This document shows, one piece after another, positions 6,274-61,969 of a DNA stretch of 64,000 nt (positions are counted from its first letter, which is position 1; each line of letters starts with the position of its first letter). The notes beneath the pieces are model-generated. The model did no database searches. It was not told where the DNA came from and worked only from the letters and a program-made list of their open reading frames with translations. This DNA is from Prorocentrum cordatum. Lineage: Eukaryota > Sar > Dinophyceae > Prorocentrales > Prorocentraceae. The stretch covers positions 410,426-474,425 of the forward strand of contig CAUYUJ010001336.1 in assembly GCA_963575745.1 (NCBI GenBank), given 5' to 3'. A program made the position numbers and the translations under genes.

Positions 6274-6328
6274 TGCCTCTTCTATTCTCTGTGAGCAAGC
6301 TCCTGCTGTCTCCGCAGCTTCTCTGCCC
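6274..6328 (+). repeat. Split direct repeat A1
   Basis: Begins TGCCTCTTCTATTCTC and is identical over 55 bp to A2 at 16523-16577. It marks the left end of the element; the bases before it are microsatellite. Confidence 0.9.
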
Positions 6329-6363
6329 AAGTGCCCCCCGTCGGCCGCGCGTGCGGGCGCCTT

Positions 6364-6888
6364 ATGCAGGTGGTCGCACAAGCGGCTCTCCAGGGCGCTG
6401 GGGAGATTTTGTTCAGGGGGCTGCGGGCCGCGCTCTACGAGCGGCTCGTGGCTGCCCCCCTCTCTGTGCTTCAGGACCAGGGGCCTCCATCGCCTGCCTG
6501 GTCCATCCAGCAGGCGGACTCGTCCGAGGGTGAGGGGGCCTCCTGCCCTCTCCCTTCGGCGGGTTCCACCTGCCCCACCGTCTGCCTCGGGCTGGCGGTG
6601 GACCTGAGCGGCGGGGTCTCTCCCTGGCTGCTCAGCACGGTCGCCGCCCTCCTCTGGGTGACGGCCGCCTGCAGCGCCTGCGCGGGCTGCTGCCTCGGGC
6701 TGCTGGGCCCGTACGTGTGGCGGAGGCTCTGGCCCTCCGCCTGGCCGCGCGGCGCGGTTCCTGCTTCACCTGAGCAGGACCGCCGTGCGGCGCGAGCGCT
6801 GGCCTACGGGGTTCCGCCTCGACCTCAAGCGCTCGAGCGGGCAGACGCCCAGCGTGCGGGCGGCGGCGTCCACGACGGCGCCCACTGA
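6364..6888 (+). CDS. Small predicted membrane protein, ORF1 of the Ngaro/PAT-type element
   Basis: The first ATG of the frame is at 6364, giving 174 codons; an upstream GTG at 6331 is unlikely to be used in a eukaryote. The N-terminal third is amphipathic and helical (Ala/Leu/Arg, with QVVAQAALQGAGEILFRG at the start). The middle is Ser/Pro-rich. About residues 78-125 hold one or two hydrophobic Leu/Val/Ala/Cys segments followed by an Arg/Trp-rich stop-transfer-like stretch and a polar tail. Its TGA overlaps the gag ATG in the pentamer TGATG, which suggests coupled termination-reinitiation. I know no family for it; an accessory membrane or envelope-like role is only inference. It could be chance, but the exact junction with gag and the hydrophobic pattern favour a real gene. 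Confidence 0.5.
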   Translation: MQVVAQAALQGAGEILFRGLRAALYERLVAAPLSVLQDQGPPSPAWSIQQADSSEGEGASCPLPSAGSTCPTVCLGLAVDLSGGVSPWLLSTVAALLWVTAACSACAGCCLGLLGPYVWRRLWPSAWPRGAVPASPEQDRRAARALAYGVPPRPQALERADAQRAGGGVHDGAH

Positions 6889-8828
6889 TGGCGGAGCTGC
6901 CACCAGTTGGCGGAGGGCCCCTTTGGCCCGAGCTCTACCCTTTCGCTGCGCCCACGGCGCGCGACTACGCACGATGGCGCCTAGACGACGGCGACACCAG
7001 CTGGGCGGCTATCCCCCTCGCCTCTCGAGAAGGGGGCATCCTGCTGGCCCTGCCTGGTGCCTTTCGCTCTACAGCGGAGCTCGAGGCTGCCGAGGCGGAT
7101 GGCTTTGCTGGGATGATAGGCCCCTTCCAGCTAGTGGACGTCCAGCTCCAGGGGGCCGCTTCACGGCCGCTCGCCACTACCGCATCCGTCCTCGTTATAG
7201 ATATCGAGGTTGCCGAGCTCGAGCTCGAGTCGCTGTACCCTCTAGAGGTCGGCGACGACGCAGGCATCGTTCCCTTCGCCGAGGTGCGCAGCCGCGTCTA
7301 TTGGCCGCATCCTTCGGGGGTTCGGGTGCTTCGCGAGGGCTACGCTCGTTTGCACGGCGCCCCGCCTACCGCAGGGGAAGAGCCTCTCCCAGGGGCCGAT
7401 CGGGCTACCCCCTACCACTCTGCCGACGAGATGGAGGAGCCCGAGGGGTTCGCGGCCGACGGGGAAGCCGACCGCGCGGCCCCAAGTGCGCGAGCCCCCG
7501 CGGTCGCTGGAGCGCCGCGCGGCCCGCCCGCCAAGCGCGCTGGCGCCGCCGCGCCGCCACGGGTCGCGGGTCCTGCTCCGATTGCTCCTGGTGCTCCTGC
7601 GGCGTCTCTGGACGACGGGGCTCCCATGACCCGCGCCGAGGTAGCTGCCGAAATGCGCGCCTTGCTTGCAGCCCACGCGGCCTCCACGATGGTCGGCGGA
7701 CCCGAACCGCTGGGCCCCGCTCCGGCTGCCCGGAGCGCTCGGCCCGAGGTGCCTCAGCTTTTCAGCGACGAGGCGGCGCGCCTCGGGCTGGATCCTGCGG
7801 GGATCGAGGCCGTCTTGTCCCACGCGCCCGTGGCCCCACATCGGGTCTCCGCGCGCCCCAAGGGACCCACCTCCGCGCTGGTCTCGGCGTGGGAGAAGGC
7901 GCGCTCTCTTGCTGTCCCTCGGGCCCCTTCGTCCGCTTTCGGACCGATGGGCCCCCCGCCGCCGCCTGGGCTAGCCCATCCCGCTGCGGTCGACGGCTTT
8001 GCCGAGGCGGGCGGCGCCGACGGGTTAGAGCCGCCCCTTGCGGCCAATCCGACGGACTTCAGCCTCATGCTTCAGTGCCTGCACCAGTCCCTTTCCTTGC
8101 AGCAGGGGCGGGGCCATCGCCCAGCCTTCCACCCGCTTCTGGGGACCCTGAGCGACCAAGCTCAAACTCCGCCCGCGACCTCGGGCGACCCCGCGCACGC
8201 ATCGGCTCAGATGGGGGGAATCGCTCGGAGGCGCGAGTGGCAGCAAGCGCTGATGCAGCACGGCCCCGACGTGCGAGGACTGATGAAGGAGAATTTGGCC
8301 CGCGTTCTGGGCGTGGAAGTCAGCGCCGTGACCCCCATGGCCATGCATCAGTACTTTCGCGAGCACAGCCCCCTCGGGGCTCAGCCGTCGACGCACGAGT
8401 TGTTGACGCATTTTGCCTTCCTCAGCGCCGAGCTGTGGCGGGCCTGCGAGGAGGGCAACCCCGAGAGGGTCCAGACCTTGCTGACTTGCCAGTGCATGTT
8501 CATCGACCAGTTGGCGGGGGACCGCGGCTACCTCGAGGCCGCTTGGTTCCTCACGGGGCTGGAGCCTCCCCCGTGTCGCGTGACCAGTCGTCACACGGAG
8601 CGCGAGGCCCAGACCCCGTTTTCACCCCTAGTGGATCCTCGCTGGCTGTCGGCGCAGGGCGAATACATGAAGGAGCTGCAAGCATTTCGGGCGCGCCTCG
8701 ACGCCGAGCGCGCCGTCGCGCTCCCCAAGCATCCACCTCATCAGCCCAAGCAGCCCAAGGTCTCAAAGCCCCCCTTCAAGTCTCAGGGTGCTCCCAAGGC
8801 CCCGAAGGCGGTGCCCAAGAAGGACTGA
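6888..8828 (+). CDS. gag: Gag-like protein of the Ngaro/PAT-type element
   Basis: 646 codons with normal protein composition, unlike the Arg-rich frame that overlaps it. Residues 1-160 look globular (Trp, Tyr and acidic residues). Residues 160-250 are an Ala/Pro linker. About residues 270-300 and 385-610 form the conserved-looking second half, including a Trp-containing segment YLEAAWFLTG and a following WLSAQGEYMKELQAF helix. The last 40 residues are Lys/Pro-rich and could bind RNA. No CCHC zinc knuckle is present, which is common for DIRS-order gag. It starts inside the stop codon of ORF1. Pol lies in the -1 frame relative to gag, and that frame is open through the whole gene, so a -1 frameshift could fuse the two; internal initiation at 9101 is the alternative. 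Assignment rests on position and architecture, not on a searched match. Confidence 0.75.
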   Translation: MAELPPVGGGPLWPELYPFAAPTARDYARWRLDDGDTSWAAIPLASREGGILLALPGAFRSTAELEAAEADGFAGMIGPFQLVDVQLQGAASRPLATTASVLVIDIEVAELELESLYPLEVGDDAGIVPFAEVRSRVYWPHPSGVRVLREGYARLHGAPPTAGEEPLPGADRATPYHSADEMEEPEGFAADGEADRAAPSARAPAVAGAPRGPPAKRAGAAAPPRVAGPAPIAPGAPAASLDDGAPMTRAEVAAEMRALLAAHAASTMVGGPEPLGPAPAARSARPEVPQLFSDEAARLGLDPAGIEAVLSHAPVAPHRVSARPKGPTSALVSAWEKARSLAVPRAPSSAFGPMGPPPPPGLAHPAAVDGFAEAGGADGLEPPLAANPTDFSLMLQCLHQSLSLQQGRGHRPAFHPLLGTLSDQAQTPPATSGDPAHASAQMGGIARRREWQQALMQHGPDVRGLMKENLARVLGVEVSAVTPMAMHQYFREHSPLGAQPSTHELLTHFAFLSAELWRACEEGNPERVQTLLTCQCMFIDQLAGDRGYLEAAWFLTGLEPPPCRVTSRHTEREAQTPFSPLVDPRWLSAQGEYMKELQAFRARLDAERAVALPKHPPHQPKQPKVSKPPFKSQGAPKAPKAVPKKD

Positions 8829-8954
8829 AGATGCCCTTGGCGCCCGCCTTCTTGGAGGGGGGGCCTTCGCGTGGCCGGGGTACGCCGCCGCAGACAGTCT
8901 GCACCGACGCTGCTACGGCTGCTAGGCGTGTTTGGGCGCAGCGAGGGCGTGAGG

Positions 8955-9016
8955 GTAGGAATGCGCTCCTCCAGCGATGCTGTTGCGGCCCCGCAGGGAG
9001 GAGTACGTTCCGCCAC
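8955..9016 (+). repeat. Dispersed ~62-bp repeat, copy 1 (gag-pol gap)
   Basis: Shares a 36-bp identical core (8963-8998) and a similar flank with 14192-14253 inside pol. The two copies lie in different reading frames relative to pol, so the similarity is at DNA level, not protein level. Both start GTAGG and have GCAG 42 bp later. Confidence 0.85.
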
Positions 9017-9100
9017 CACGCCCCTCGCTCTGCTCCGAACCGCCCCTCGGATCCATTCGGCCATTTTGGCCGTCACCTGCCTCAGTCGAGCGCTCCCCCC

Positions 9101-12100
9101 ATGGGGCCTGCAGCCCCTGAGGTTGGTGTTCTTGCTGGTGCTTGTTCTCCTTCAAGCACCCCTGCTGCTCTTGCCAACGTCGCGCCATTTGTCGCTGACT
9201 TGTCTGCCTTGCTGCGCCTGTTTCCAGGCGCGAACATTGATATCACCCACTGGGCGGCAGCGCTGTCCCAGGTTGGGATGGGTGCTCGATGTTCTCTTGG
9301 ATCTTTCTCCCGCTCATCAATGCGTGCAATGGACAGGGACGACCCGTACCTTTTGGGGCCGCCTCCCCGCGATCCTTGGCCGTGCCCGCCTGCTCCACCT
9401 CTTGGTCCCCCGCCTGACGGCTTGTCGGCGAGGCGCAGGGAGCGCTGGAGATTGCGGCGCGCGGCGCGGACGCTCGCGCAGTATTCTGTTATTGCGTTGA
9501 ACTGGCTCACTTTGGGTCATCCTAGCCTCGCTCCCGCCGAGGCTCGCGTCCGCGCCACGGTCTCGCCCTGCCAGGAGGGCGTCCGCACCCGTATCGAACG
9601 GTTGTGTCGGATCGCAGTTCGCCTTGCCCGTGGCGGCAAGAGCGACTTAGGTCGAGCCTTCGCCAAGTTCGACTCTACTGAGGTCTCGCTCCATGGCCTG
9701 GCCACCCATGTTGCAGCTTTGGAGGCCTCCTTCACCTCCTCTTCTTCCGTGCCCGCCCCCATGCGGCACTGCCCGACCAGCGCTCCTTCCGTGCCTGGTT
9801 CGCTGGCGTCTGCGGCGGCTTGGGACTCCACCCAGGTCGAGCCCTTCGATTTAAAAGTCAGGGCGTCTCGCATTAAGTGGGATTACTCGCCAGAGTTTGA
9901 TCCCATTCCATTTCTCTCTGACGCTCGAGTCCGCGAAGCGTTCATCAATCCAGAGGAGATGCGGCTCCCGGCGTCAGAGTGGCCTGCTGGCCAAAAGGGG
10001 GCGCGTGTCCATATGGACCGCGCCGAGCTGTGGGCCCTGCTCCAGAAGTGGGATGCCTGCGGCGCCCTGTACCTGACTCCTGCTTCGGACCTCGCCTGGG
10101 ATGAAGCCTGCGGAGCTTTCAGGGTACCGAAGGACAGCGACTTCGACAGGCTGATCCTGAACCCAACGGTCGTGAACAGCCGCTGTGCCTCAATCTCGTC
10201 CAGCACCCAGCGCCTTGGCCAGGGTTTCCTGCTGTGCCGTTTGGGTCTGGCGCCTGGGGAGTGGCTGGCAGTTTCTTGCGACGACCTACGGGAGTTTTAC
10301 TACACTTTCCGCGTTCCTCCCGCGCGCGCCAGGCGTAACGCCCTTCGCGTTCGTCTGCCATCATCCCGCTTCAAGGCCTTTCGAGCCTGGCGCCCCGAGC
10401 TCGAAGGTGTGGACGTCGCGCCTTGCCTCAATGCTCTAGCGATGGGCGACAACATGGCGGTGGAGATTGCCAACTCTGCACATGAAGGCGTCTTGCACAG
10501 CTTCGGGGCCTTGCGGCCTCACGAGCAGGTTGTCCACCGCTCGCCCTTCCCGCGGGGACCGTTTGTCGAGATGCTGAATATTGATGACCATACAGGTTTT
10601 CAGAAGCTCTCGTGGCATGGCTCCGCTCCTCGCCCCGACGACCCCTGTCGTCGTGATCGTGAGGTCTTCGCCGCCTGCGATGCAGGCTACCCGCGCGTGG
10701 GCCTGATTCAGCATCCAGGCAAGCGCGCGCGCGGCGAAACGCACAAGGTGGTGGTGGGCGCCGAGGTGGAAGGGCGCATAGGCATCGTCTGCGCTCCCTT
10801 AGTGCGGACGGTGGCCTTGTGCAGGCTGACCCTGATCCAAATCTACCTCGGCATCACCACACGCTCCCTGTTAGCCTCTCTTGTGGGCTGCTGGGTCCAG
10901 GTGTTCCTCTATCGCCGTCCGATGCTCGCCATCTTCACGCACGTCTACAACTTCCTGTCGCGCCTGGCGACCGAGGAGGGCATTGAATACGACTTGCCTC
11001 CTTATGTTCGCGACGAGCTTTTGGCCTGCACCTTTTTAGCCTTTACGGCTATAACCGACCTTCGGGCGCAGCCTTGCCCCGAGGTGTTCGGTGCGGACGC
11101 GTCTCTCGGCTGGGGGGGCGTTGTCCGCGCTCCTATCAGCCCGCAGCTCTCCGCCGAGCTGTGGCGCAGATCGGAGCACGGGGGGTGGCACACGATCCTG
11201 CACAATCGGAGCCTCCTCGCCGTACTCAGCCGCGGCGTGCCCTTGGGCCCTGAGCTCACCCAACTGCATCGCGACCTGGGGCTCCCGTCTATTGAGCCCC
11301 CCGTCGCGCCGCGTTGGGTCACCGAGCTATCAGAGGCGCTGCGCTTTCGGCTCGCGTACAAATGGGAGTTTCGCATGCCCCGTCACATCAATATCCTTGA
11401 GACAACGGTGTATAAGAGCTTGTGCAAGTACTGCTGTATTCGCCTCCCTGACTCTCGTATCCCCGTTCTCTTGGATTCAAAAGTGGCTTTGGGCGCGACC
11501 GCGCACGGGCGCAGTAGCTCTCCTGGTCTATCTCACGTTCTTTCGACCACTTTGCCCTATGTGATAGGAGGAGGTTTATATATGGGAGGCATGTACGTGC
11601 CTACGGACGTGCACAGGGCCGACGACCCCACGCGGAACCGTGCGGTGAGGCCCCCGTCCCGTGACCCTCCCGCCTGGTTAGTTGAAGCAGAGAGAGGAGA
11701 ATTTACTCGCTTTGATTGCATTGCGTACGCCGACTCCCGCTCGTCATTCCCTACTTGTCTCTGGGGCCGATTTGTTGCGCAGCTTGTGGCTCGAGGCCCC
11801 GAGGGGCTGCTCAGCCACCGCTGGGCGGCCGCCCCCCCCCCCTCGGAGGGCGCGGGGATGGCCGCCGACGCCGCCAGCGACGGCGCCCAGGGGGAGGCAC
11901 CTGACCCCTCGGGCGCCGCCGAGAGCAGCAGTGAAGCTGCTCTCGCCAGCGGAGAGCGTCGCGGGCCTCGCAACGCGCTCTTCGCTGACAGCGAACGGCC
12001 TCTCGCGTCCTCGGCAGACGCCACGCCAAAAGCGTCTGCCTCCGCGGAGGGCGGCTCGCCCGGCCCCGACCCTGGCGCCGCCAGCGCAGGATCGGCTCCC

Positions 12101-15100
12101 CAGGCCGCCAAGCGTGCTCCGCCACTGGCCCTCCGCTCCAAGGCCGCGGCGGCCCCTCCGCCTGCTATCGGGGTGGGCTCGTCGCGCGTCGGCTCGCGGG
12201 AAGCGCCAAAGGGGGCCTCAGCAGCTACCCCCCGCACCTTCCAGCGAGCGGCCAGGGTGAGCGCCTCTCGCCAACTGCTTGGCGTAGTGGACGGGGCCTC
12301 GCGCGGCACAATTGAGGCCGCCTTCAGGCGCCAGTCCCTAGTCTACCATCCAGACAGGACTCCCGCGCACCTGGGCGCCGACGAGCGAGCAGCCCGCGCG
12401 CTGAAGTGGAAGCAGCTCTGTGACGCCAAGTCAGTGTTGCTCCAGGCCGTCTCGCAGGCCGCCGCGCCGCCCGATGTTCCTAGCACGGGCGGCGACGGCC
12501 CTGCCGCCCGCGCCTACGCCCGGGCCAAGGCGGCAGGAAAGGGCGCCCGCAAGGGCAAGCTGGCTCCAGGGTCGACCATGGCCCTTCAGGCACTCGAAGA
12601 GGCGGTCTCCTCGCGGGTCGCCCTTGCGAGCGCCGAGCTGGCCCCTCGGGCTGCCCTCCCCGCCTCGGGCGCGCCTCTCCCGAGGGGCGGGGTTTCGTCT
12701 GCCCTCGCGACGCGGGCGGCTGAGTCGGATGCCATCCTCGTCTCCGCCGTGTCGCGCGGCCGCGTGGAGCTCGACGCACTCCGCACCGCGCGTGCCGACG
12801 CCACCAGGCGCACGGTGCAGGCTCCTGCACGCGGCGAAGGAGAGCGTGCCGTCGCTCGTGCCGAGCTCGCGGAAGGGATGGCCGATCGCGCCTACTTCCG
12901 ACGCGTGCGCGAGGCCGCCAGTCGAGAGGCCGCGGGCTTGCCGCGCACTGCTCCCGTCCAGCTGGGTCGGGATTGGCGCAAAACCTTGCGCGCCGTCCTG
13001 CACAACGCTGAGGTCTCGACGGGCCTCGCCATCGCAGAACGTGCCGCTCGTGCTGGGGACGCACCCGCGTCGTCCACTGGCCGCTCCTTGGCCGAGGTGG
13101 AGGCTGAGGACCCGCGCGCCTTGGCAAGGCCCGCCGACGACCCTGCGTCCAGCTTCAGCCGTCGTGAGCGGCGCGCGGTCCGCGCCCGCCTGGGCCCGCG
13201 GGATGAAGCGGTCGAGGACCAGCCCAACCGCGGTGGTCACGCGCCGCACTCCGCCTCGCGCACGGGCGCCGCGCGCACCAGGCGCGCCGCCAGGCAGCGG
13301 CGGGCTTCGATGGCGGCGCTCCCCGCCCCTGAGGGGGGGGCCGCCACGGCGCCTGGCCGCAGGGCGCGTCGCACTGCCAATGCGCGCCGCTGGGCAGGCG
13401 CGGCACGCCCCAGCTCCGCCGCGGGAGTGGGCTCCCCACCGCGGAGCCGCAGCCCTGCCCGCAGCCGTACGCGGTCTCCAAACCCGTACGGGACCGACCG
13501 CACCTCTCCCTCGGGGGGCTGCTCGTCGCCTCCCGTCGACGGCCCGATCTCGCCCGAGGAGCCGTCGGAGCCGCCTGCGGGGGAGGCATCGGAGGGCCCG
13601 CACACTCCTGACGGGTCCCCGCCCGCGAGCGTTCGCAGCCGCTCGAGAGCGGAGCCCGCGTGCGACGAGGACTCTCCGACGGAGCTCGAGGACGTCGTGC
13701 TGAGTGCCCTCGCAGACTCCTCGATGGACCTCGAGCGCGTCGTGGCGGGCCTGAACCCCGAGGTCCTCCGCCGCCTGCAGGCGGCCTTCCCTCGCCGCTC
13801 GGGGGCCTCTCCGCCCGCCGCTCGCGCCTCGGTTCGCAGTCGCTCTCGGGGCCGCGGCACGCGTGTAGGCTCCGAGACTCCGCGGCCCGTGCCCCCGCCG
13901 CCGCCGCCGCCCCCTCACCACTCTGGTGGGCGTGCGGCGTCGCGATCCCGCGCGTCGACCGCAGGCCAGGGGCTTAGTCGGGCCGTCGCGCGCGGCTCCT
14001 CTCGCGCGCCTTCGCGTCAGGCGACGTCGCCTCGGCGTCGCGAGGTGCGCTCCCCTCGAGTCGCTCCGAAGCGGCGCCCGAGCCCCGCTACTGCGCAGCG
14101 GCCAGCCACGTCCCGCCATGGTGCGAGCTCGGGCGACGCCCACGCAGGCAGCTCCCGCGCGGACTCCGCTGCTCAGGCCCCTCAGTCTTCGGTAGGCACG
14201 CGCTCCTCCAGCGATGCTGTTGCGGCCCCGCAGGGCGGAGGGCGTGCCGCCGAGGAAAGGGGGTCTTCGAGCGGCCCCGCGCCTGGCCGAGATTCAGGGC
14301 ACGAGCTGCATCCCAGCGGCTCCCACAGCGGCGACGCTGGGAGCGCCGCGGCTGCAGCCTTCGCAGCGCGGCGCACGGCCTCCGCGGCCGTTGAGCAGCC
14401 CTTGCCTCCAGGGGCCGCCACCGCCCTAGCGTGGCGTCTCAACCTCGGCGGTGAGAAGGTCACAGTGGTGAGGTGGGGACCCGCCTTGCAAGCTGCCTTC
14501 CAGAGCGCGGCGTCGTGGCTGAGGTCTTTCGCACCCGCAGGGGCCGCCGAGCCCGAGGGCAGAGATGACCTGCACTGCCTCCTGCAGGCCCTGCACGCCT
14601 ATAAGCGCCTGTTTCAGACAGGCGGCGCCGAGCCGATCGACGAAGCCTCGTGGTTGCATCCTTACGTGGCCGCCGTCGAGCCCGAGGCTATCCCCGCGGG
14701 CGCTGACCTCCAAGCCATGGGGGCGGGCGCCATCCGTGGCATCGGGCTCGGCTCAAAGATCGAGCACAGGAGGCGCGCGGGCAAGTTGGCCTGCCTTTTC
14801 GACCTTCTGTACCACGTGCAGGACGGTCACGGCGCCATCCCAGCAGCGCTGTGGGGATCTCATTCCCCTCCGTCCGAGATCCTCGACGCGTTCGCGGAGG
14901 TGGTGCCCGTTCCACATCATTCGGGCCTCACGTCCTCGGCAGCTCGTTCCGAGCTCGCCGAATCGGCCGCAGCTGCGCGCGCCGAGCCGCGCCCGCCCTT
15001 TGACTGGGCGACCCTCGAGGGAGGGGGCGCTCTGCCCGCCGAGATCGAAGCAGGGGCTCGCCGTGCTCACCGTAACATGGGCGGATCCTTCACCTCGGCG

Positions 15101-16354
15101 CGGGCGATGCTGGCGGAGGCGTCGGGGTTCGAGACCGACGGGCGGGACACCCTCGTTCCGCCCTTCTACGCGTCCAGGAGCAGGAGGGCCGCCACGCTGA
15201 TCAGCTCTCCCAGCCCTGGCCGCCCTGCGCTCATCCTGTGGTGCGTCTGCGGCCTCTGCATCTCTCTGGGAGCCGCGGCGCCGACCGCAGGCCAAGGGCT
15301 TAGTCGGGCTGCGCCTTCCGCGCCCGCTCGCCCTCCGCGCACTCCCTTCGTGCGCGATTCTCACCTCACCTCCGCGTATCTCGATCGTCGCTCGAGATCG
15401 ATTGATGCGTTCGAACTGTGGTTAGCAGAACACACTGGCGTGCCGCCCGCCACTCTTTACCGTAGCGGGATACTTCTCGCCCGCTTCCTCGCGACCTTCG
15501 GCGTGTGGCTTCATGATGCAGGTTTCCCTCATTATATTCTGGTTCATGCCATCTTGGGAATCCAGAGCGCTCATCCGCATTGGAAGGCCTTTCTAACAGA
15601 AGCTTGGGACGTAGCGAAACAATGGAAGCTCGCGGAGCCGCCAAAGCTCCGCCCGCCCTTACCTCGCGCTCTGCTGCGCGCTATGGTCGGTCTCTGTTTC
15701 GCCTGGGACTGGCCTGTGATGGCGGCCTTGCTGCTCATGGGCTTTACGATGTTCCTCAGGCCTGGCGAGCTGCTGGCGTCACGCCGCTGTGACTTGTCGC
15801 TTCCTTGCGACCGCCTCGAAGTTGAAGGGGATGCTTTTCTCTCGATTCTTGTTCCAAAGACCAGGAGAACGTACCCGACGCAGCATGCTCGCTGCTCCGA
15901 TCGGGGCACGGTGAAGATTCTGAATCAAGTGTTTGGGCGGTTGGCTTCCACCGATCCTCTCGCCCCTTTCGGTGCGAGCGGCTTCCGTACTCGGTGGAAT
16001 CATTTGCTTTCGGCCCTGGGCGTCCCTCTTGCCAAAGCGGGTCAGGGGCTCAACCTGACGCCCGCATGTCTGCGGGGCTCTGGCGCAACAGACTTCTATA
16101 TCGCTACGGAAGACGTCCCTCGCGTCTTCTGGCGGGGGCGTTGGCGTCAGGCTTCCAGTGCTGAGCGCTACCTGCAAGCCGCCGCCGCTTCCACAGTTCT
16201 TGCTGCGCTGCCCGTGCCCGCACGGGCGCGGATCCTGTTCTTCGCCACCGCCAGCGACCGCCTTGTCGCTTCATTTCTCCAAGTCGGCCCCGCCGCTTGG
16301 CCTGCCCTACTTGCGGCCGCCCGCCGAAACCTTGTCACTTCGCAAGGTCCTTGA
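9101..16354 (+). CDS. pol: Pol polyprotein: RT, RNase H, J-domain, RS-rich region, tyrosine recombinase
   Basis: The frame is open from 6785, but protein-like sequence begins near the ATG at 9101, giving 2417 residues. RT: motif A with Asp394/395 (CDDLREFYYTF), motif B near residue 448 (MGDNMAVE), motif C Asp495/496 (LNIDDH). RNase H: Asp666 (GADASLGWGG), Glu767, Asp792 and the HRADDPTR motif with Asp841. Residues 1054-1117 form a DnaJ-type J-domain with HPD at 1083-1085. Residues about 1440-1690 are Ser/Arg-rich with SRSPARSRTRSP. A hydrophobic stretch lies near 2043-2057. The tyrosine recombinase occupies about 2100-2400: Arg2220 (FLRPGELL), Arg2325 (ACLRGSGAT, the usual box-II His replaced by Ala), Trp2348 and Tyr2357 (ERYLQ). 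RT, RNase H and recombinase match the DIRS order; the J-domain is exceptional. Confidence 0.88.
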   Translation: MGPAAPEVGVLAGACSPSSTPAALANVAPFVADLSALLRLFPGANIDITHWAAALSQVGMGARCSLGSFSRSSMRAMDRDDPYLLGPPPRDPWPCPPAPPLGPPPDGLSARRRERWRLRRAARTLAQYSVIALNWLTLGHPSLAPAEARVRATVSPCQEGVRTRIERLCRIAVRLARGGKSDLGRAFAKFDSTEVSLHGLATHVAALEASFTSSSSVPAPMRHCPTSAPSVPGSLASAAAWDSTQVEPFDLKVRASRIKWDYSPEFDPIPFLSDARVREAFINPEEMRLPASEWPAGQKGARVHMDRAELWALLQKWDACGALYLTPASDLAWDEACGAFRVPKDSDFDRLILNPTVVNSRCASISSSTQRLGQGFLLCRLGLAPGEWLAVSCDDLREFYYTFRVPPARARRNALRVRLPSSRFKAFRAWRPELEGVDVAPCLNALAMGDNMAVEIANSAHEGVLHSFGALRPHEQVVHRSPFPRGPFVEMLNIDDHTGFQKLSWHGSAPRPDDPCRRDREVFAACDAGYPRVGLIQHPGKRARGETHKVVVGAEVEGRIGIVCAPLVRTVALCRLTLIQIYLGITTRSLLASLVGCWVQVFLYRRPMLAIFTHVYNFLSRLATEEGIEYDLPPYVRDELLACTFLAFTAITDLRAQPCPEVFGADASLGWGGVVRAPISPQLSAELWRRSEHGGWHTILHNRSLLAVLSRGVPLGPELTQLHRDLGLPSIEPPVAPRWVTELSEALRFRLAYKWEFRMPRHINILETTVYKSLCKYCCIRLPDSRIPVLLDSKVALGATAHGRSSSPGLSHVLSTTLPYVIGGGLYMGGMYVPTDVHRADDPTRNRAVRPPSRDPPAWLVEAERGEFTRFDCIAYADSRSSFPTCLWGRFVAQLVARGPEGLLSHRWAAAPPPSEGAGMAADAASDGAQGEAPDPSGAAESSSEAALASGERRGPRNALFADSERPLASSADATPKASASAEGGSPGPDPGAASAGSAPQAAKRAPPLALRSKAAAAPPPAIGVGSSRVGSREAPKGASAATPRTFQRAARVSASRQLLGVVDGASRGTIEAAFRRQSLVYHPDRTPAHLGADERAARALKWKQLCDAKSVLLQAVSQAAAPPDVPSTGGDGPAARAYARAKAAGKGARKGKLAPGSTMALQALEEAVSSRVALASAELAPRAALPASGAPLPRGGVSSALATRAAESDAILVSAVSRGRVELDALRTARADATRRTVQAPARGEGERAVARAELAEGMADRAYFRRVREAASREAAGLPRTAPVQLGRDWRKTLRAVLHNAEVSTGLAIAERAARAGDAPASSTGRSLAEVEAEDPRALARPADDPASSFSRRERRAVRARLGPRDEAVEDQPNRGGHAPHSASRTGAARTRRAARQRRASMAALPAPEGGAATAPGRRARRTANARRWAGAARPSSAAGVGSPPRSRSPARSRTRSPNPYGTDRTSPSGGCSSPPVDGPISPEEPSEPPAGEASEGPHTPDGSPPASVRSRSRAEPACDEDSPTELEDVVLSALADSSMDLERVVAGLNPEVLRRLQAAFPRRSGASPPAARASVRSRSRGRGTRVGSETPRPVPPPPPPPPHHSGGRAASRSRASTAGQGLSRAVARGSSRAPSRQATSPRRREVRSPRVAPKRRPSPATAQRPATSRHGASSGDAHAGSSRADSAAQAPQSSVGTRSSSDAVAAPQGGGRAAEERGSSSGPAPGRDSGHELHPSGSHSGDAGSAAAAAFAARRTASAAVEQPLPPGAATALAWRLNLGGEKVTVVRWGPALQAAFQSAASWLRSFAPAGAAEPEGRDDLHCLLQALHAYKRLFQTGGAEPIDEASWLHPYVAAVEPEAIPAGADLQAMGAGAIRGIGLGSKIEHRRRAGKLACLFDLLYHVQDGHGAIPAALWGSHSPPSEILDAFAEVVPVPHHSGLTSSAARSELAESAAAARAEPRPPFDWATLEGGGALPAEIEAGARRAHRNMGGSFTSARAMLAEASGFETDGRDTLVPPFYASRSRRAATLISSPSPGRPALILWCVCGLCISLGAAAPTAGQGLSRAAPSAPARPPRTPFVRDSHLTSAYLDRRSRSIDAFELWLAEHTGVPPATLYRSGILLARFLATFGVWLHDAGFPHYILVHAILGIQSAHPHWKAFLTEAWDVAKQWKLAEPPKLRPPLPRALLRAMVGLCFAWDWPVMAALLLMGFTMFLRPGELLASRRCDLSLPCDRLEVEGDAFLSILVPKTRRTYPTQHARCSDRGTVKILNQVFGRLASTDPLAPFGASGFRTRWNHLLSALGVPLAKAGQGLNLTPACLRGSGATDFYIATEDVPRVFWRGRWRQASSAERYLQAAAASTVLAALPVPARARILFFATASDRLVASFLQVGPAAWPALLAAARRNLVTSQGP
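12260..12450 (+). other. J-domain coding segment inside pol
   Basis: Encodes SRQLLGVVDGASRGTIEAAF, then helix II ending in YHPDRTP and a helix III with QLCDAKSVLLQ. This follows the canonical J-domain plan: LGV, A-S...I..A(Y/F)R, HPD, and an A..VL helix. HPD codons are at 12347-12355. In known J-proteins this loop stimulates Hsp70 ATPase. It lies between RNase H and the RS-rich region. Confidence 0.85.
13956..15309 (+). repeat. 28-bp repeat pair within pol
   Basis: 13956-13983 and 15282-15309 share 27 of 28 bases. Both copies fall in the same frame and encode TAGQGLSR. The flanking sequence is different, so this is a short dispersed insert-like repeat and not a domain duplication. Confidence 0.85.
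14192..14253 (+). repeat. Dispersed ~62-bp repeat, copy 2 (inside pol)
   Basis: Second copy of the repeat at 8955-9016. Here it is translated in the pol frame as RSSSDAVAAPQGG, whereas copy 1 would encode that peptide in a different frame. Confidence 0.85.
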
Positions 16355-16365
16355 GCACGGGTATG

Positions 16366-16523
16366 GCTGCCTCGCCGTCGTCGGCGAGCAGGCGGTCTCC
16401 CCCGCCTGACGCGCGGCGCCCCGGCACGAGCGCGCGGGACGGGCCTGCCCATTTTGGGCCGCCCCGCGCGCGCGAGCCGCGGCCGCGCTCGGAGACAGCT
16501 CGCTAGCGCGCGAGCGGGAGAAT
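16366..16523 (+). repeat. Split direct repeat B1
   Basis: 158 bp, identical to B2 at 16612-16769. It starts 12 bp after the pol stop codon. It contains two perfect inverted repeats: a 7-bp stem at 16371-16388 (CTCGCCG/CGGCGAG) and a 9-bp stem with arms at 16430-16438 and 16463-16471. Its last base is the first base of A2. Confidence 0.95.
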
Positions 16524-16577
16524 GCCTCTTCTATTCTCTGTGAGCAAGCTCCTGCTGTCTCCGCAGCTTCTCTGCCC
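16523..16577 (+). repeat. Split direct repeat A2
   Basis: 55 bp identical to A1. The B1/A2 junction GGGAGAAT-GCCTCTT is what a circularised B-A joint would look like, consistent with the circular-intermediate model for Ngaro/PAT elements. Confidence 0.95.
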
Positions 16578-16611
16578 CCCTCCCTCCTCTCCCAATCTAA
16601 GGCTGATGGGC

Positions 16612-16769
16612 GCTGCCTCGCCGTCGTCGGCGAGCAGGCGGTCTCCCCCGCCTGACGCGCGGCGCCCCGGCACGAGCGCGCGGGACGGGCCTGCCCATTT
16701 TGGGCCGCCCCGCGCGCGCGAGCCGCGGCCGCGCTCGGAGACAGCTCGCTAGCGCGCGAGCGGGAGAAT
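16612..16769 (+). repeat. Split direct repeat B2, right end of the element
   Basis: Identical to B1. It ends in GGGAGAAT and is followed directly by AATCATCATCC microsatellite sequence, which fixes the right boundary. Confidence 0.95.
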
Positions 16770-17505: not shown

Positions 17506-17695
17506 AAACGGCTTTTAAACAAAATAGAGTCCGCGTTGGAGGCTTGCTTAATAATAATATCTAACAGTTGCTTGGGCTGAGAGCTATTGCGCTGGCCTTA
17601 CGGCCTGTGCCGCCGACCCTGGAGGCATCGGCTCTCGAGAGAAACGGGGGGGAGAGGGCGGGGAGGAGGAGGAGACGGAGGAGTGAAGGAGCCCA

Positions 17696-19037
17696 AGGAC
17701 AGAATTTAACACCAGAGTGGCGTGTAAAATTCTGTCATCGTGTCGTCGTCGGCGTCGACGTCGACGTCGTCGACGTCGCACCCGTCGTCGTTGTCGTCGT
17801 CCTTGTCGTTGCCGTCGGCACCGGGGCCTCCAGGACAGAATTTAACACGAGAGTGGCGTGTTAAATTCTGTCCTCGTGTCGGCGTCGTCGTCGTCGTCGG
17901 CGTCGGCACGAGGACCCCCAGGATAGAATTTAACACGAGAGTGGCGTGTTAAATTCTGTCCTCGTGTTGTCGTCGTCGTCCGCGTCGTCGGCACAAGGAC
18001 CCCGAGGACAGAATATAACACGAGAGTGGGTGTTAAATTCTGTCCTCGTGTCGTCGTCGTCGTCGTCCGTCGTCCTCGTCGTCGTCATCGTCGTCGCACC
18101 CGTCGTCGCGACGACGACGCGTCGTCCTTGTCGTTGTCGTCGGCACAAGGACCCGAAGGACAGAATTTAACACGAGAGTGGCGTGTTAATTTCGTTTCGT
18201 CGTCCGTGGTCGTCGTCGTCGTCGTCGACGTCGCACGCTTCGTCGTCGCCCTCGTCGTCATCGTCGTCGTCGTCGGCACAAGGACCAGAAGGACAGAATT
18301 TACACGAGAGTGGCGTGTTAAATTCTGTCCTCGAGTCGTCGTTGTCGTCGTCGACGTCGACGTCGACGTCGTGGACGTCGTACTCGTCGTCGTCGTCCTT
18401 GTCGTCGCGTCGGCACTAGGGCCCCAAGGACAGAACTTAACACGAGAGTGGCGTTTTAAATTCTGTCCTCGTGTCGGCGTCGTCGTCGTCGTCGACGTCG
18501 CACGCGTCGTCGTCGTCGTCGTCCTCGTCGTCGTCGTCGTCGTTGTCGGCACAAAGACCCGAAGGACAGAATTTAACACGAGAGTGGCGTGTTAATTTGA
18601 GATGCCTCTTGGAACGTCTGATGGGCATCTTATGTGCCTCTGTCCCTCGCTACCCCCCTCGCTACCCCGCCTCGCTACCCCCTCCCGGGACCCCCCCGCC
18701 CCCTCGCGCGGGGAAGGGAAGAAAGGGAAGGGGCTTGCCTTTGATTCAGAGGCGACATTGCGAATCCGGGACGGCGATGTATCTGACCGAGAAGCCCCAG
18801 GAGGGCGGCGTATCTGACCCAGGACCCCCCTCGCTAACCCCCCTCGCTACCCCTCCGGGACCCCCCCCCCCCCGCGCGGGGAAGGAAAGAAAGGGAAGGG
18901 TGTTCCCTCTGACCGAGGATCCCCAGGAGGGCGTCGTGGACGTCGCACTCGTCGTCGTCGTCGTCCTTGTCGTCGCGTGGGCACTAGGGCCCCAAGGACA
19001 GAACTTAACACAAGAGTGGCGTTTTAAATTCTGTCCT
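17696..19037. repeat. Array of nine 43-bp hairpins separated by GTC-rich spacers
   Basis: The full unit has arms AGGACAGAATTTAACACG and its perfect complement (18 bp) around the loop AGAGTGG. Copies: 17696-17738, 17832-17874, 17920-17962, 18005-18046, 18157-18199 (right arm eroded), 18290-18331, 18427-18469, 18563-18600 (right arm truncated) and 18995-19037. Spacers are GTC/CGTCGT microsatellite and commonly end in GGCAC.AGG.CC just before the left arm. Not CRISPR: the spacers are low complexity and the genome is eukaryotic. Any frame through it is repeat translation. Confidence 0.92.
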
Positions 19038-19160
19038 TTCCCTCTGACCGAGGATCCCCAGGAGGGCGGCGTATCTGACCCAGGACCCCCCTCGCTACCC
19101 CCCCCCCCGGGACCCCCACCCTCCCCCCGGTGGGGAGGGTAGGGAGGGGCTTCGCCACGA
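18770..19160 (+). repeat. Duplicated CCGAGGATCCCCAGGAGGGCG segment
   Basis: The phrase CTGACCGAGGATCCCCAGG followed by C-rich sequence ending in a GGGGAAGG or GGGGAGGG tract occurs at about 18785-18925 and again at about 19040-19150. Hairpin copies 7 and 9 and their spacers (18370-18470 and 18920-19037) are also near-identical, indicating segmental duplication of part of the array. Confidence 0.6.
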
Positions 19161-55367: not shown

Positions 55368-56192
55368 CTACCGGCGAGTTTCCTCGCTACTAAAGCGCAC
55401 CTGCCCGCGGGTTTCCCCGCTGGCTCGGGAGGCAGGGCCGTCCTGAGACGACCTGCCCGCCCTATACGGCGTATGTTTCTTCAGCTCGTGCTTGAAGGAT
55501 TGCTGGCCGGCCATTACTTGTAGGAGCAACGCGCGGTCAATACTACCTTTGGTATGACCATCGGCAGTCATATCCCGCGTGTCACACCATTGGACGCTTT
55601 CCACGATTCCGCGTTCCATCATCTGGCGGATCCAGCTGATGTGCCCAAGCAGAGTACATTCTGTGGGCTTCTTCAGATCTTTGCTAGACAAAGACTTGAA
55701 GACAGACTCGGCATCAATAGTCAGAGTGACTTTGATACATAGACCACCCATTTCCAATATGTTCTTTAACTGTGTGGGGGTCAATGGTCCCGAGTGTAGC
55801 TCGTGGAGCGTTACAATGGTCGGGTAGCAGTCTTCCAAGTTGTGGGCTGCTGCCAGTGTTTCCGCAGAGTAGCTCGAACGCACCTGCAGTCGATGAGACT
55901 TGCAGTATGCGTCCACCAGGTGCACGACGGGTTTCCCCGCTTGCGTGTGGCCACGCCTCAGCAGGTTAGCCCCGCGGATACCATAGCCTTTGACTTCGTC
56001 GTCTTCATCTCCGTTGAGACGACGATAGCCAGAATCGCTATGCAGGTCGACTTCTCCTGTTGGGGTCATAGCTTGATACACGATCTTCTTCGGACCTGCC
56101 TGTAGTTTCTGGTAACCGCGTTTAGTCGTCGTACCTGGATGTTTGTCGGTTCCTGGATACGTTGTAGTGAGACAACATAGACCATCAGCCAT
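55368..56192 (-). CDS. RNase H region of the copia polyprotein, shifted frame
   Basis: From about residue 30 this is copia-type RNase H: DLHSDSGYRRL (first Asp), SYSAETLAAAHNLED (Glu), LTIDAESVFKSL (Asp) and QWCDTRDMTADGHTKGS (last Asp). The ATG at 56192 is only the first Met in this frame and overlaps the end of the RT frame (56066-56192). The natural junction is near 56095-56115, where RT residues NAVTRNY lead into LQAGPKKIVYQAM here. The shift is -1 in reading direction. Either an indel disabled this copy or it is recoded; no classic slippery heptamer is seen. The last residues are encoded by three of the 14-nt hairpins (SGETRG, SEETRR). Confidence 0.8.
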   Translation of the reverse strand: MADGLCCLTTTYPGTDKHPGTTTKRGYQKLQAGPKKIVYQAMTPTGEVDLHSDSGYRRLNGDEDDEVKGYGIRGANLLRRGHTQAGKPVVHLVDAYCKSHRLQVRSSYSAETLAAAHNLEDCYPTIVTLHELHSGPLTPTQLKNILEMGGLCIKVTLTIDAESVFKSLSSKDLKKPTECTLLGHISWIRQMMERGIVESVQWCDTRDMTADGHTKGSIDRALLLQVMAGQQSFKHELKKHTPYRAGRSSQDGPASRASGETRGQVRFSSEETRR

Positions 56193-59100
56193 ACCTGCGT
56201 GATCAACGCATAGGCTAGAGCGCCACGAAGACTGACGAACATATCAGAAATCGTCTTTGTCGCTTTGCTCTCAGGATCAGCTCCTGTGAGTTCTGGATGT
56301 GTGATAGGACGAAGCTGTTTGATGTATTCGTCCTGATCAAGAGTGACGCTCCCATCATCGGTCTTGTTGTACCGAACGGCACAGTTTGTGTATGTGTGCT
56401 TGTTCAGTTTGCACTTCCCAAACGTATCTTCAACACACTTGACATACTTGTCAATAGCCTCTTCCTTCCCAGTCATATTGATGTCATCAACGTGCTTGGC
56501 TGTCAAGAGGTTTGGGCTCATCTCGAACTCTTCGTCGTATGAAGTAGGCTGTAGCCCAAAGCTCCTAGTGATGGACCTGAGCTTCAGCGAGAATGCCCTG
56601 GGAGCATCCTTCGTGCCCGTCCCCGGTTTCAGACACCGGAGACAATGCTTTGATTCGTCATATGACTCAAAGCCTGGCAGTGTGCGAAGGACAGCTGCTG
56701 ACCCAGGTGGTAGTGTGAAGCACACCACACGCTCTTTCTCGCCCGTTGCCGCGGCGAGCTCGCCATAGGTCAGTCCCTTCAAGAAAGCCATGTTGATGTC
56801 CAGGGAAGCGATGATCCAAGCTTTGTTGCATGCAGCAGAACTTGCGAGCAGTCTCTGGCTTGACCTCCTTGCCGTGCCAGAGAAGGTTTCGACATCAAAG
56901 GCTTCAAGGTCCATGAAGCCACGGAGTACCAAGCGTAACCTGATCGTCCTTTCCATTTCGCCCTTTTCGTTCTTGACAAACTTCCATTTGTATACGTAGC
57001 GTGACGTCATGATGTTAGACGCCTTGCTTAAGTCAGTCATCTGGAAGCATTTGTTGTCAAGCCAAGTCTTCAATTCTGTGTAGAGGGCTTTGGAAACTTT
57101 GACCGGATTTGCTTGGATGTCGGCCTTCGTGAGTAGATCGTCTTCCTTGACGACCACGGCACGTTTGGAGGCAGCGCTAACGTATACTCGCATAGTTGTG
57201 ACGCTGCTGTCATCCAACAATCGGTGTTGCTGCTCGGACAGGGCGACTTTGGACATGTCTGCAGTGAAGCAGAGCTCGATGTACTTCCCGTGCTCATCAG
57301 AGTCCAGATCATATTTGCTATCCGGATCCGTGGAGCATAAAGGAACGTAGTAAGAAGTGTCCATGTCGTATCCTGGCGGGTGACCCCGCTCCGGCAAGTG
57401 GCCTTGCACATCTTCACAGGTCGTAGAGACTAACACACACTGTGTGTCTGTCATGTATGTGGGAACTGTATGCATGACTTCCTCTGTGTCAGCTTCAAGG
57501 AGTGTTCTGTCATCCATCAGTTCAGCATACCACGACTTCAAGACAAAAGCATCCAGATCTTCTTCTGTTTCCTCTATGATGGTCGGGAGCCGACCATCGT
57601 TATCCGTAGGAGGCTCCTCAGGAGCAGCTGCTGGAGGTGATTCGCTTGGTGGTGGACCATCAGCGAGTTCCTCAAACTTAGTGAGGTCTTGGTCAAATCC
57701 AGCAGACGGCTTCCTGGATTTAAGACACTGGATGATGCGTGAGTGTGTAGATCCTGTGATGTCATAGATGTTCAAGGCAGTGCCATCAGCTTCATAGTAA
57801 TGAAAACCAGGGGTCACATCATTATCATAGTGCACTAGTGTACAGCTGTCTGCATAGGGTGCAGCAGGCAACTTCGTCAGGCTCTTGGCAAGTCGTACAG
57901 CAACAACGTTTTCAATACGAAAGTAGTTGCGTATGAGGTACTGAAGAGCCAAGTGCACCTTAGGCGAAAGTCGGCTCGCAGCAGTCATCTGCAGCCGACC
58001 CTGTTTCGCTGGTAGATATCCGAAAGTCATGGCGGGTTTCCCCGCTGGCAGACCGGCAATAAAGGCCAATACTGTCCGAAGGGCCGTATTGTCCGATCCT
58101 ATCTCGCGGACCATAAGTGCTTCGATGTACAGTGTGTGTCGTGTGTCAGGATACTGTACTCGCACTTCGCGACTGCCGACCTTCACGATGACCTGGCCTC
58201 GGTCAGGTTCGTTGCGGATGACCGGGTATGGACCACTCCATCCACCCCAGTCGTCTTTCGTGGTGGTCGGGCGATGATAGTCCACGAGATCTCCCTCTTT
58301 GTAGTGAAATTCACCCGTAGCAGTAGTCTTCGTACGGAGAGCCCTGTTCGTCTTGGCAACCGCAGTGGCCTGCGTGATTGCCTCCAGACTAACCCTCCTG
58401 ATTGTTTCCTCCCTTGAGTGATCTGATGATTCAGCGGACTGATCATGATCCAAGACAGGGAAATCGGGAAGCATAGCTGGTTGTCTGCCATACAGCGCAT
58501 TGTACGGAGACACTTCATTGTAGAAGGTAAATGCGTTGCTGGCAAACAAGGCTTCATGTAAGAGACGAGTGAAATTGAGAGGAATATTTAATCTATTCAA
58601 TTCTTCTCCCATCACGTGTAAGAGGTGTCGCAGGATGCCGTTCCTAGCTTCGATAGTTGTAGCGTGTTGGCCACGCGCTCGAATACGAAGCTCTGTTCCC
58701 TTAGCCTTAAGGATGGCCTTTGCTGTATCATTATTCAGTGCTCCTTCCCCATCGGAGTATAAGATTTTAGCAGGGCCATGTTGCATCCAAGTCGTATGAT
58801 AGGCATCGAGAACAGTATGCATGGCTTTATCAGGAATCTCTGTGCCAGCTGCCCAGCGAATACAACGGTCGATGATGTGAAAAACAATATGTTCCTGTTT
58901 GTAAAAGAAAAGATCACATTCGACTTCCTCGTTGAAACGTCCTGGCAGTGACACAGAAGGCATCACCGTGTTGCCTGGTTTGTCCCAGGCTCGACATTCT
59001 CTACACGAGTCACAAATGCCTTTGATCAGACTCAAACGGGTTTCACCCAGACCAACCTTGGTTAGAATCATCCGCATTTTTGGCTCCTTGGCATGAAACC

Positions 59101-61765: not shown

Positions 61766-61934
61766 TACCTCATTATGGGTAATCCGGTCGCATATATATC
61801 CACGGGTTCGGAGTTCAGCGCAAGCTGTGCGAATATCTTCGATGACGAGACATTTTGAATGATATTTTTCTTCTCGGGCCTCAGCGCGGCCAACGTATGT
61901 CGCGAGGAGGCCGGTATTCGGCTTCTCTTCGCAA

Positions 61935-61969
61935 GCGAGCGCCGCCGGCGCGCCCGCCTGCCCCCGTCA
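61935..61969 (-). promoter_or_regulatory. Candidate stop-codon readthrough signal between gag and pol
   Basis: On the minus strand the gag frame ends at TGA (61969-61967) followed by CGG. Nine bases after the TGA an 8-bp stem GCGGGCGC/GCGCTCGC (one G-U pair, arms 61957-61950 and 61942-61935) closes a 7-nt loop. The frame after the TGA is open and identical to the pol frame. UGA-CGG plus a 3' structure about 8 nt downstream is the known type II readthrough context. Confidence 0.65.

Follow-up and report, generated by a model that had tools for sequence, protein, structure and literature searches.

A DnaJ-type J-domain encoded within the Pol polyprotein of a high-copy, putative tyrosine-recombinase retrotransposon family in the dinoflagellate Prorocentrum cordatum

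The window, a stretch of 64,000 nucleotides of the Prorocentrum cordatum genome, contains a young, high-copy Ngaro-type (A-pol-B-A-B) retrotransposon, probably of the tyrosine-recombinase (YR) kind, whose Pol polyprotein, judged by profile matches, includes a genuine DnaJ-type J-domain. Comparable segments occupy the same place in the Pol of five sister subfamilies, and purifying selection has kept the J-domain between subfamilies. We consider it fairly probable, taking the parts together, that a J-domain was fused into Pol, that it was acquired before the family split and maintained by purifying selection, and that it docks Hsp70 in the lineages with an HPD tripeptide.

Results

Architecture of the element

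The element spans 6274-16769 in the order A-gag-pol-B-A-B with split direct repeats (Table 1), the A-pol-B-A-B arrangement of Ngaro-type YR retrotransposons. A host (ATC)n microsatellite flanks it on both sides. Because both repeat pairs are identical and the element lies inside the ATC microsatellite, the insertion is young. The gag-like ORF shares 26-32% identity over parts of its length with three sequences, P0003 (Durusdinium trenchii), P0004 (Symbiodinium CCMP2592) and P0005 (E-values of 5 × 10−5 to 2 × 10−6). The pol ATG follows two bases past the gag stop. We rejected a −1 frameshift from gag to pol, as pol has its own ATG and 8401-8860 lacks any slippery heptamer that contains AAA or TTT, the sole heptamer candidate there being CCCCCCT at 8769.

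Table 1. Features of the retrotransposon, in window positions.
Feature	Position	Strand	Description
Terminal repeat A1	6274..6328	+	55 bp, left end; 100% identical to 16523-16577
gag-like ORF	6888..8828	+	646 aa; weak similarity to P0003, P0004 and P0005
pol ORF	8831..16354	+	2507 aa, no in-frame stop; TGAAGATG
RT-RNase H block	9488..11737	+	pol aa 220-969; by-eye motifs and homology to P0003/P0004
Linker rich in Ala/Ser/Pro/Gly	11738..12238	+	composition
J-domain	12260..12460	+	LLGV, FRR, HPD, helix III KWKQLCDAKSVLL; Pfam DnaJ E = 2.9 × 10−7
Long linker rich in Ala/Arg/Ser/Pro, partly RS-rich	12461..14320	+	composition
Segment in pol frame ahead of recombinase block	14321..15277	+	pol-type codon usage at 14459-14861
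Tyrosine-recombinase-like block	15350..16252	+	by-eye motifs; homology to P0003/P0004; weak PHROG integrase match
Repeat B1	16366..16523	+	158 bp; 100% identical to 16612-16769
Repeat A2	16523..16577	+	100% identical to A1
Repeat B2	16612..16769	+	right end of element; ATC microsatellite adjoins

The names RT, RNase H (RH) and YR were assigned to the Pol blocks from recognised motifs and from homology to P0003, P0004 and P0005. By eye, we take DDLREFYY (10280), IDD (10580), DAS (11090), HINILE (11384), DS (11465) and ADDPTR (11612) to be RT/RNase H motifs. Likewise, R (15758), TPxxLR (16058) and Y (16169) are presumably recombinase residues, and R/TPxxLR/Y is shared, by eye, with P0003 and P0004. 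Identity to these two sequences is 27-30% over the RT/RH region and 30-33% over the recombinase-like region (pol aa 2174-2449), with the same block order, while no alignment to them was found across the roughly 1200 residues in between. Profile searches of the RT/RNase H block gave no significant match in Pfam, NCBIfam or PDB. The recombinase-like block had no match among Pfam and PDB profiles and a weak one to a PHROG integrase (E-values of 0.02-0.04, best 0.022, in two of three members). Reverse transcriptases of Symbiodinium DIRS elements also align poorly with Pfam, according to the accessible text of de Mendoza et al. 2018 (PMC5890265). Neither the long linker, in a family-profile search, nor the segment ahead of the recombinase block, in family-profile and PDB searches, had a significant match. 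Two imperfect repeat pairs were seen within the element, one at 8954-9014 and 14191-14251 (61 nt at 90%) and another at 13952-14010 and 15278-15336 (59 nt at 75%), the latter bracketing the segment ahead of the recombinase.

A J-domain in the pol frame

The J-domain segment lies in the pol frame on the forward strand and encodes the residues QLLGV...GTIEAAFRRQSLVYHPDRTP...KWKQLCDAKSVLLQ. The HPD tripeptide, encoded by 12347-12355, is present between helices II and III. Searched as a piece (12200-12600), the region matched Pfam DnaJ (PF00226) with 30.9 bits (E-value of 2.9 × 10−7, cut-off 27.8) over residues 26-82 (nt 12275-12445). The match ends at profile position 55 of 63, which leaves a poor fit at the domain's end. 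A scan of the whole 2507-aa pol with the same profile gave 25.2 bits (E-value of 1.8 × 10−5), below the curated cut-off of 27.8. The J part also matched NCBIfam TIGR02349 (E-value of 1.1 × 10−5; the score of 25 bits falls well short of the cut-off set for the full-length model) and solved J-domains in PDB (2yua, E-value of 8.7 × 10−5; 1hdj, E-value of 1.1 × 10−4). Across all six frames of the window, the J site is the one place where the pattern (Y/L/F)(H/R)PD(R/K) occurs.

An earlier note on this DNA had proposed a J-domain in pol between RNase H and the recombinase. This is borne out by place, strand, frame and the significant Pfam DnaJ match on the piece, and the position relative to the neighbours agrees, with those blocks named by motif and homology. 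The residue range given there, 1040-1130 of pol, needs correcting to approximately 1137-1210 when counted from the ATG at 8831.

Copies of the J segment in the genome

The host assembly comprises 4.13 Gb in 21,875 contigs. The pattern HPDR(T/A)PAHLG was found at 335 exact places genome-wide and its backwards control at none. With the 133-aa J piece as query, 2264 first candidates were obtained, of which 150 were scored: 118 are identical to the window over 133 aa and 32 match at 98-99%. None of these 150 window-type matches has an internal stop, and 39 of them, the window included, have an open frame that equals the window's in length. In all 20 longer loci (L009-L028), the sequence flanking the J segment on either side aligns to the element. 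We fetched 37 window-type copies, eight with a J segment 100% identical and 29 of the 32 matches below 100%. The HPD is unchanged in 37/37, which agrees with the conservation among copies that the earlier note had expected, in a set picked by J similarity.

Outside this genome, the J part had no match at E ≤ 10 among 5.8 billion protein sequences, where weak relatives are still possible, and no relative was found in the viral contigs scanned. A close host donor gene was sought among 38 loci (L038-L075), part of a PF00226 search of the genome in which 150 of 985 candidates were scored. No donor was found among them, as identity between the element J and the J-domains of the 34 loci aligned does not exceed 32%. 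Among these loci, L068-L074 form a second multi-copy J repeat family, in which a WW-like segment, recognised by eye, comes after the J-domain and internal repeats occur. At 20-23% identity, it is unrelated to the element J.

HPD and RPD subfamilies

RT/RH queries against the genome were scored for 135 of 5047 candidates (Symbiodinium query) and 132 of 5096 (Durusdinium query). We label the subfamilies by open-frame length: 3230 (the window), 3191, 3152, 2949, 2996, 2548, 3131 and 3258, among others. Five sisters from the same genome, 3191, 3152, 2949, 2548 and 2996, have a J or J-like segment in the same pol slot, in line with the earlier note's expectation that the segment would be common to sister elements. 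Subfamilies 3191, 3152 and 2949, with one copy read each, encode a J-domain with HPD that scores 30.3-30.6 bits with Pfam DnaJ, and 2548, again one copy read, a diverged J with HPD. Together with C1793 and C17500, the single loci of these four subfamilies make 6/6 further loci in which the HPD is kept. The pattern HPDKAP(P/A)G, typical of 2548, occurs at 12 places on the same 12 contigs that hold the 2548 group in the RT/RH search; these places match the 2996 J query at 57-59%, with HPD at 12/12. In the stretch read of subfamily 3131 (L085), J-like helices I-II were seen (LLHLERGATTDRVNAQFRRLGW), while the 271 bases read of subfamily 3258 contained no J.

Subfamily 2996 has RPD instead of HPD in all four copies read. 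Its J-like segment scores 20.1 bits with Pfam DnaJ, below the cut-off, and retains LGV, FRR, PD and LCDAKS-LL. With this segment as query, 150 of 863 candidates were scored; these are the top scorers and are silent on lower-scoring groups. None of the 150, which cover several subfamilies, has a stop in the J segment. The 2996 group accounts for 33 matches, 32 at 98-100% (22 of them 100% identical to the query copy) and one at 83%. The exact RPD pattern, found at 31 places in the genome, covers 31 of these 33, the remainder being C1678 and C17231. A sister with a scrambled HPD had been named in the earlier note as a finding that would speak against its proposal, and subfamily 2996 is such a sister, with RPD in 4/4 copies and at 31 genome places.

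The J segments of the window type, 2996 and 2548 are 49-57% identical over 51 aligned residues, and the residues invariant across these lineages include LGV, FRR and PD. In the six sequences compared, the FRR of helix II, ahead of the HPD, is invariant; we take this FRR to be part of the Hsp70-facing surface. Most simply, acquisition of the J-domain would predate the divergence of the family into at least six subfamilies. The simplest view of RPD is that it arose from HPD, a polarity that we infer because HPD is both the usual J-domain state and the state of the two neighbouring lineages. Loss of the HPD histidine abolishes Hsp70 stimulation. In the RPD branch, either the use of Hsp70 has been lost or the fold has an additional role.

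Selection on the J segment

Over 62 codons, the window J segment differs from one copy each of 3191, 3152 and 2949 by 2 nonsynonymous and 16 synonymous (2:16), 2:9 and 4:13 changes, respectively (N/S ratios of 0.05, 0.09 and 0.12; p = 1.5 × 10−7, 4 × 10−4 and 6 × 10−5). All three comparisons use the window sequence and one copy per sister, and are non-independent. As the changes between sisters are mostly synonymous, selection has preserved the protein sequence of the J segment. In the same comparisons, the 47 codons of the upstream linker gave 5:6, 3:5 and 7:7 (ratios of 0.39, 0.28 and 0.47), and the constraint on the J segment was not significantly stronger than that on the linker (Fisher p = 0.07, 0.60 and 0.15). 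Compared with a 2996 copy, the J segment has a dN of 0.38 and a dS of 1.54, the latter near saturation.

No constraint on the J segment was detected among the 37 young window-type copies, where 14 nonsynonymous and 6 synonymous variants give a pN/pS of 0.93, a value biased upward in a set chosen by J similarity, 29 of whose members were included because their J differs. Variants found in two or more of the 37 copies number 3 nonsynonymous and 1 synonymous. For the same copies, pN/pS is 0.40 in RT-RH and 0.51 in the recombinase block. The earlier note had predicted a dN/dS below 1; against three sister subfamilies, at one copy each, it is well below 1, and within the young copies of this biased set no constraint is seen.

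Relatives in other dinoflagellates

The earlier note had proposed to look for the same fusion in other dinoflagellate elements. Two predicted proteins of relatives, P0003 and P0004, align over RT/RH and YR, and a Pfam scan found no J-domain in either. The fusion is therefore not general among dinoflagellate elements. A methyltransferase in the slot of P0004 that corresponds to the J segment was suspected from a by-eye likeness and rejected, with no confirmation from Pfam or PDB, where matches covered only about 26-36 residues. A profile scan of the window pol for a cytosine methyltransferase gave no methylase match.

Discussion

A probable chaperone-recruiting role and its alternatives

In the HPD lineages, the J-domain probably recruits Hsp70 to Pol, since HPD J-domains generally act in this way on the protein of which they form part. 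It would dock host Hsp70 onto Pol or a Pol-RNA particle and stimulate the Hsp70 ATPase; Hsp70 might then assist in the folding or activation of the RT, or in remodelling of the particle ahead of recombinase-mediated insertion. Labour would be divided, with Hsp70 supplied by the host and the co-chaperone by the element. The RPD lineage would have lost or changed the Hsp70 step and yet kept the fold. More tentatively, an Hsp70 co-chaperone of its own inside Pol may amount to a built-in replication step, and the RPD branch may have escaped from Hsp70 dependence.

The same conservation could arise if the segment were a J-fold adaptor without Hsp70 work, that is, a part of Pol with a structural or protein-binding function in spacing, multimerisation or contacts to Gag or the recombinase, in which the HPD is not what selection acts on. 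We regard this as rather unlikely. It would account for the RPD subfamily, which is young, multi-copy and active-looking and keeps LGV, FRR, PD and LCDAKS-LL without the HPD histidine, and the J segment still shows a dN of 0.38 against the near-saturated dS of 1.54 in the comparison with the 2996 copy. However, five subfamilies retain the HPD (the window type in 37/37; 3191, 3152 and 2949 in one copy each; 2548 in 12/12), and the FRR ahead of it does not vary among the six sequences compared. It seems quite improbable to us that the segment is a piece of a host J-protein gene that was captured by chance and is carried unused. The pN/pS of 0.93 among young copies, in their biased set, is what such a passenger might show, and P0003 and P0004 have no J by Pfam, but the strong synonymous excess between subfamilies, the presence of a J segment in at least six of them and the lack of stops in 150/150 scored matches argue against it.

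We give practically no credence to two further explanations. For a chance match in GC-rich, Ala/Arg-rich sequence, it can be said that high GC yields long open frames and that the whole-pol score is below the Pfam cut-off; it was ruled out by the E-value of the piece, the agreement of three libraries, the sister scores of 30.3-30.6 bits, the unique six-frame pattern and the selection between subfamilies. An assembly or gene-model artefact that fused a host J gene to the element is scarcely conceivable: we found no evidence in its favour, and it was rejected on the 118 of 150 places identical over 133 aa, on many contigs, and on the 20/20 longer loci in which both flanks of the J segment align to the element.

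Comparison with known systems

Host-type cargo inside Pol has a counterpart in SymbioDIRS-Dnmt3 (PMC5890265), which the accessible text of that paper describes as a dinoflagellate YR retrotransposon with an A-coding-B-A-B order, a host-type domain inside Pol and an RT that aligns poorly with Pfam. The same text gives its cargo as a cytosine methyltransferase and places the recombinase on a separate ORF, whereas the window element has a J-domain and one continuous Pol that includes the recombinase-like block. DnaJ is not mentioned in that paper. Pick-up of methyltransferases by YR retrotransposons is already known from the available portions of PMC5890265 and PMC6338049. The Ngaro group, as far as the accessible part of PMC3783388 describes it, has the A-pol-B-A-B order in common with the window element, along with RT, RH and YR, which in the window element are putative; it differs in that RT, RH, MT and YR are the domains named and that its members are fungal and animal. 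P0003 and P0004 have RT/RH and YR in the same order and differ in having no J by Pfam.

Polyomavirus T antigen is a parallel from another kind of mobile genetic agent, one that brings its own HPD J-domain and uses host Hsc70. This J-domain is N-terminal in an early protein of a DNA virus, whereas that of the window element lies inside a retroelement Pol. In hepadnaviruses, Hsp40, Hsp70 and Hsp90 may help the polymerase to attain its active state, so that activation of the reverse transcriptase may be chaperone-aided, according to the accessible part of PMC9093120. By analogy, this may serve as a lead, a precedent for Hsp70 aid to a reverse transcriptase. The co-chaperone there is a host protein in the same portion of text (PMC9093120), in contrast to the element-encoded one in the window.

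In the open-licence literature available, we did not find a description of a J-domain in any retrotransposon, and the J/DNAJ terms checked had other meanings. The accessible text of PMC6338049, which reviews the accessory domains that retrotransposon polyproteins carry, mentions neither DnaJ nor J-domain nor chaperone, and that of a dinoflagellate genome review (PMC11453091) and of the P. cordatum genome paper (PMC10666404) neither DIRS nor DnaJ. If our reading is right, retroelement polyproteins would have gained a new class of cargo, a domain that recruits chaperones, and transposition would be tied to the Hsp70 system and perhaps to heat stress. The HPD and RPD subfamilies, side by side in one genome, would be a ready evolutionary control, and with them the need of an RT element for Hsp70, and how that need is lost, becomes a testable question.

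Other features of the window

A Copia-type element lies on the reverse strand at 56066-63964 (RVT_2, E-value of 1.7 × 10−10). Its upstream ORF, near the window edge, starts with a RING-like zinc-finger segment below the Pfam cut-offs. Within 17659-19038, a TCG-rich array contains a palindromic repeat of approximately 43 nt, which occurs at intervals of 85-152 nt over 17.7-18.6 kb and recurs near 19.0 kb.
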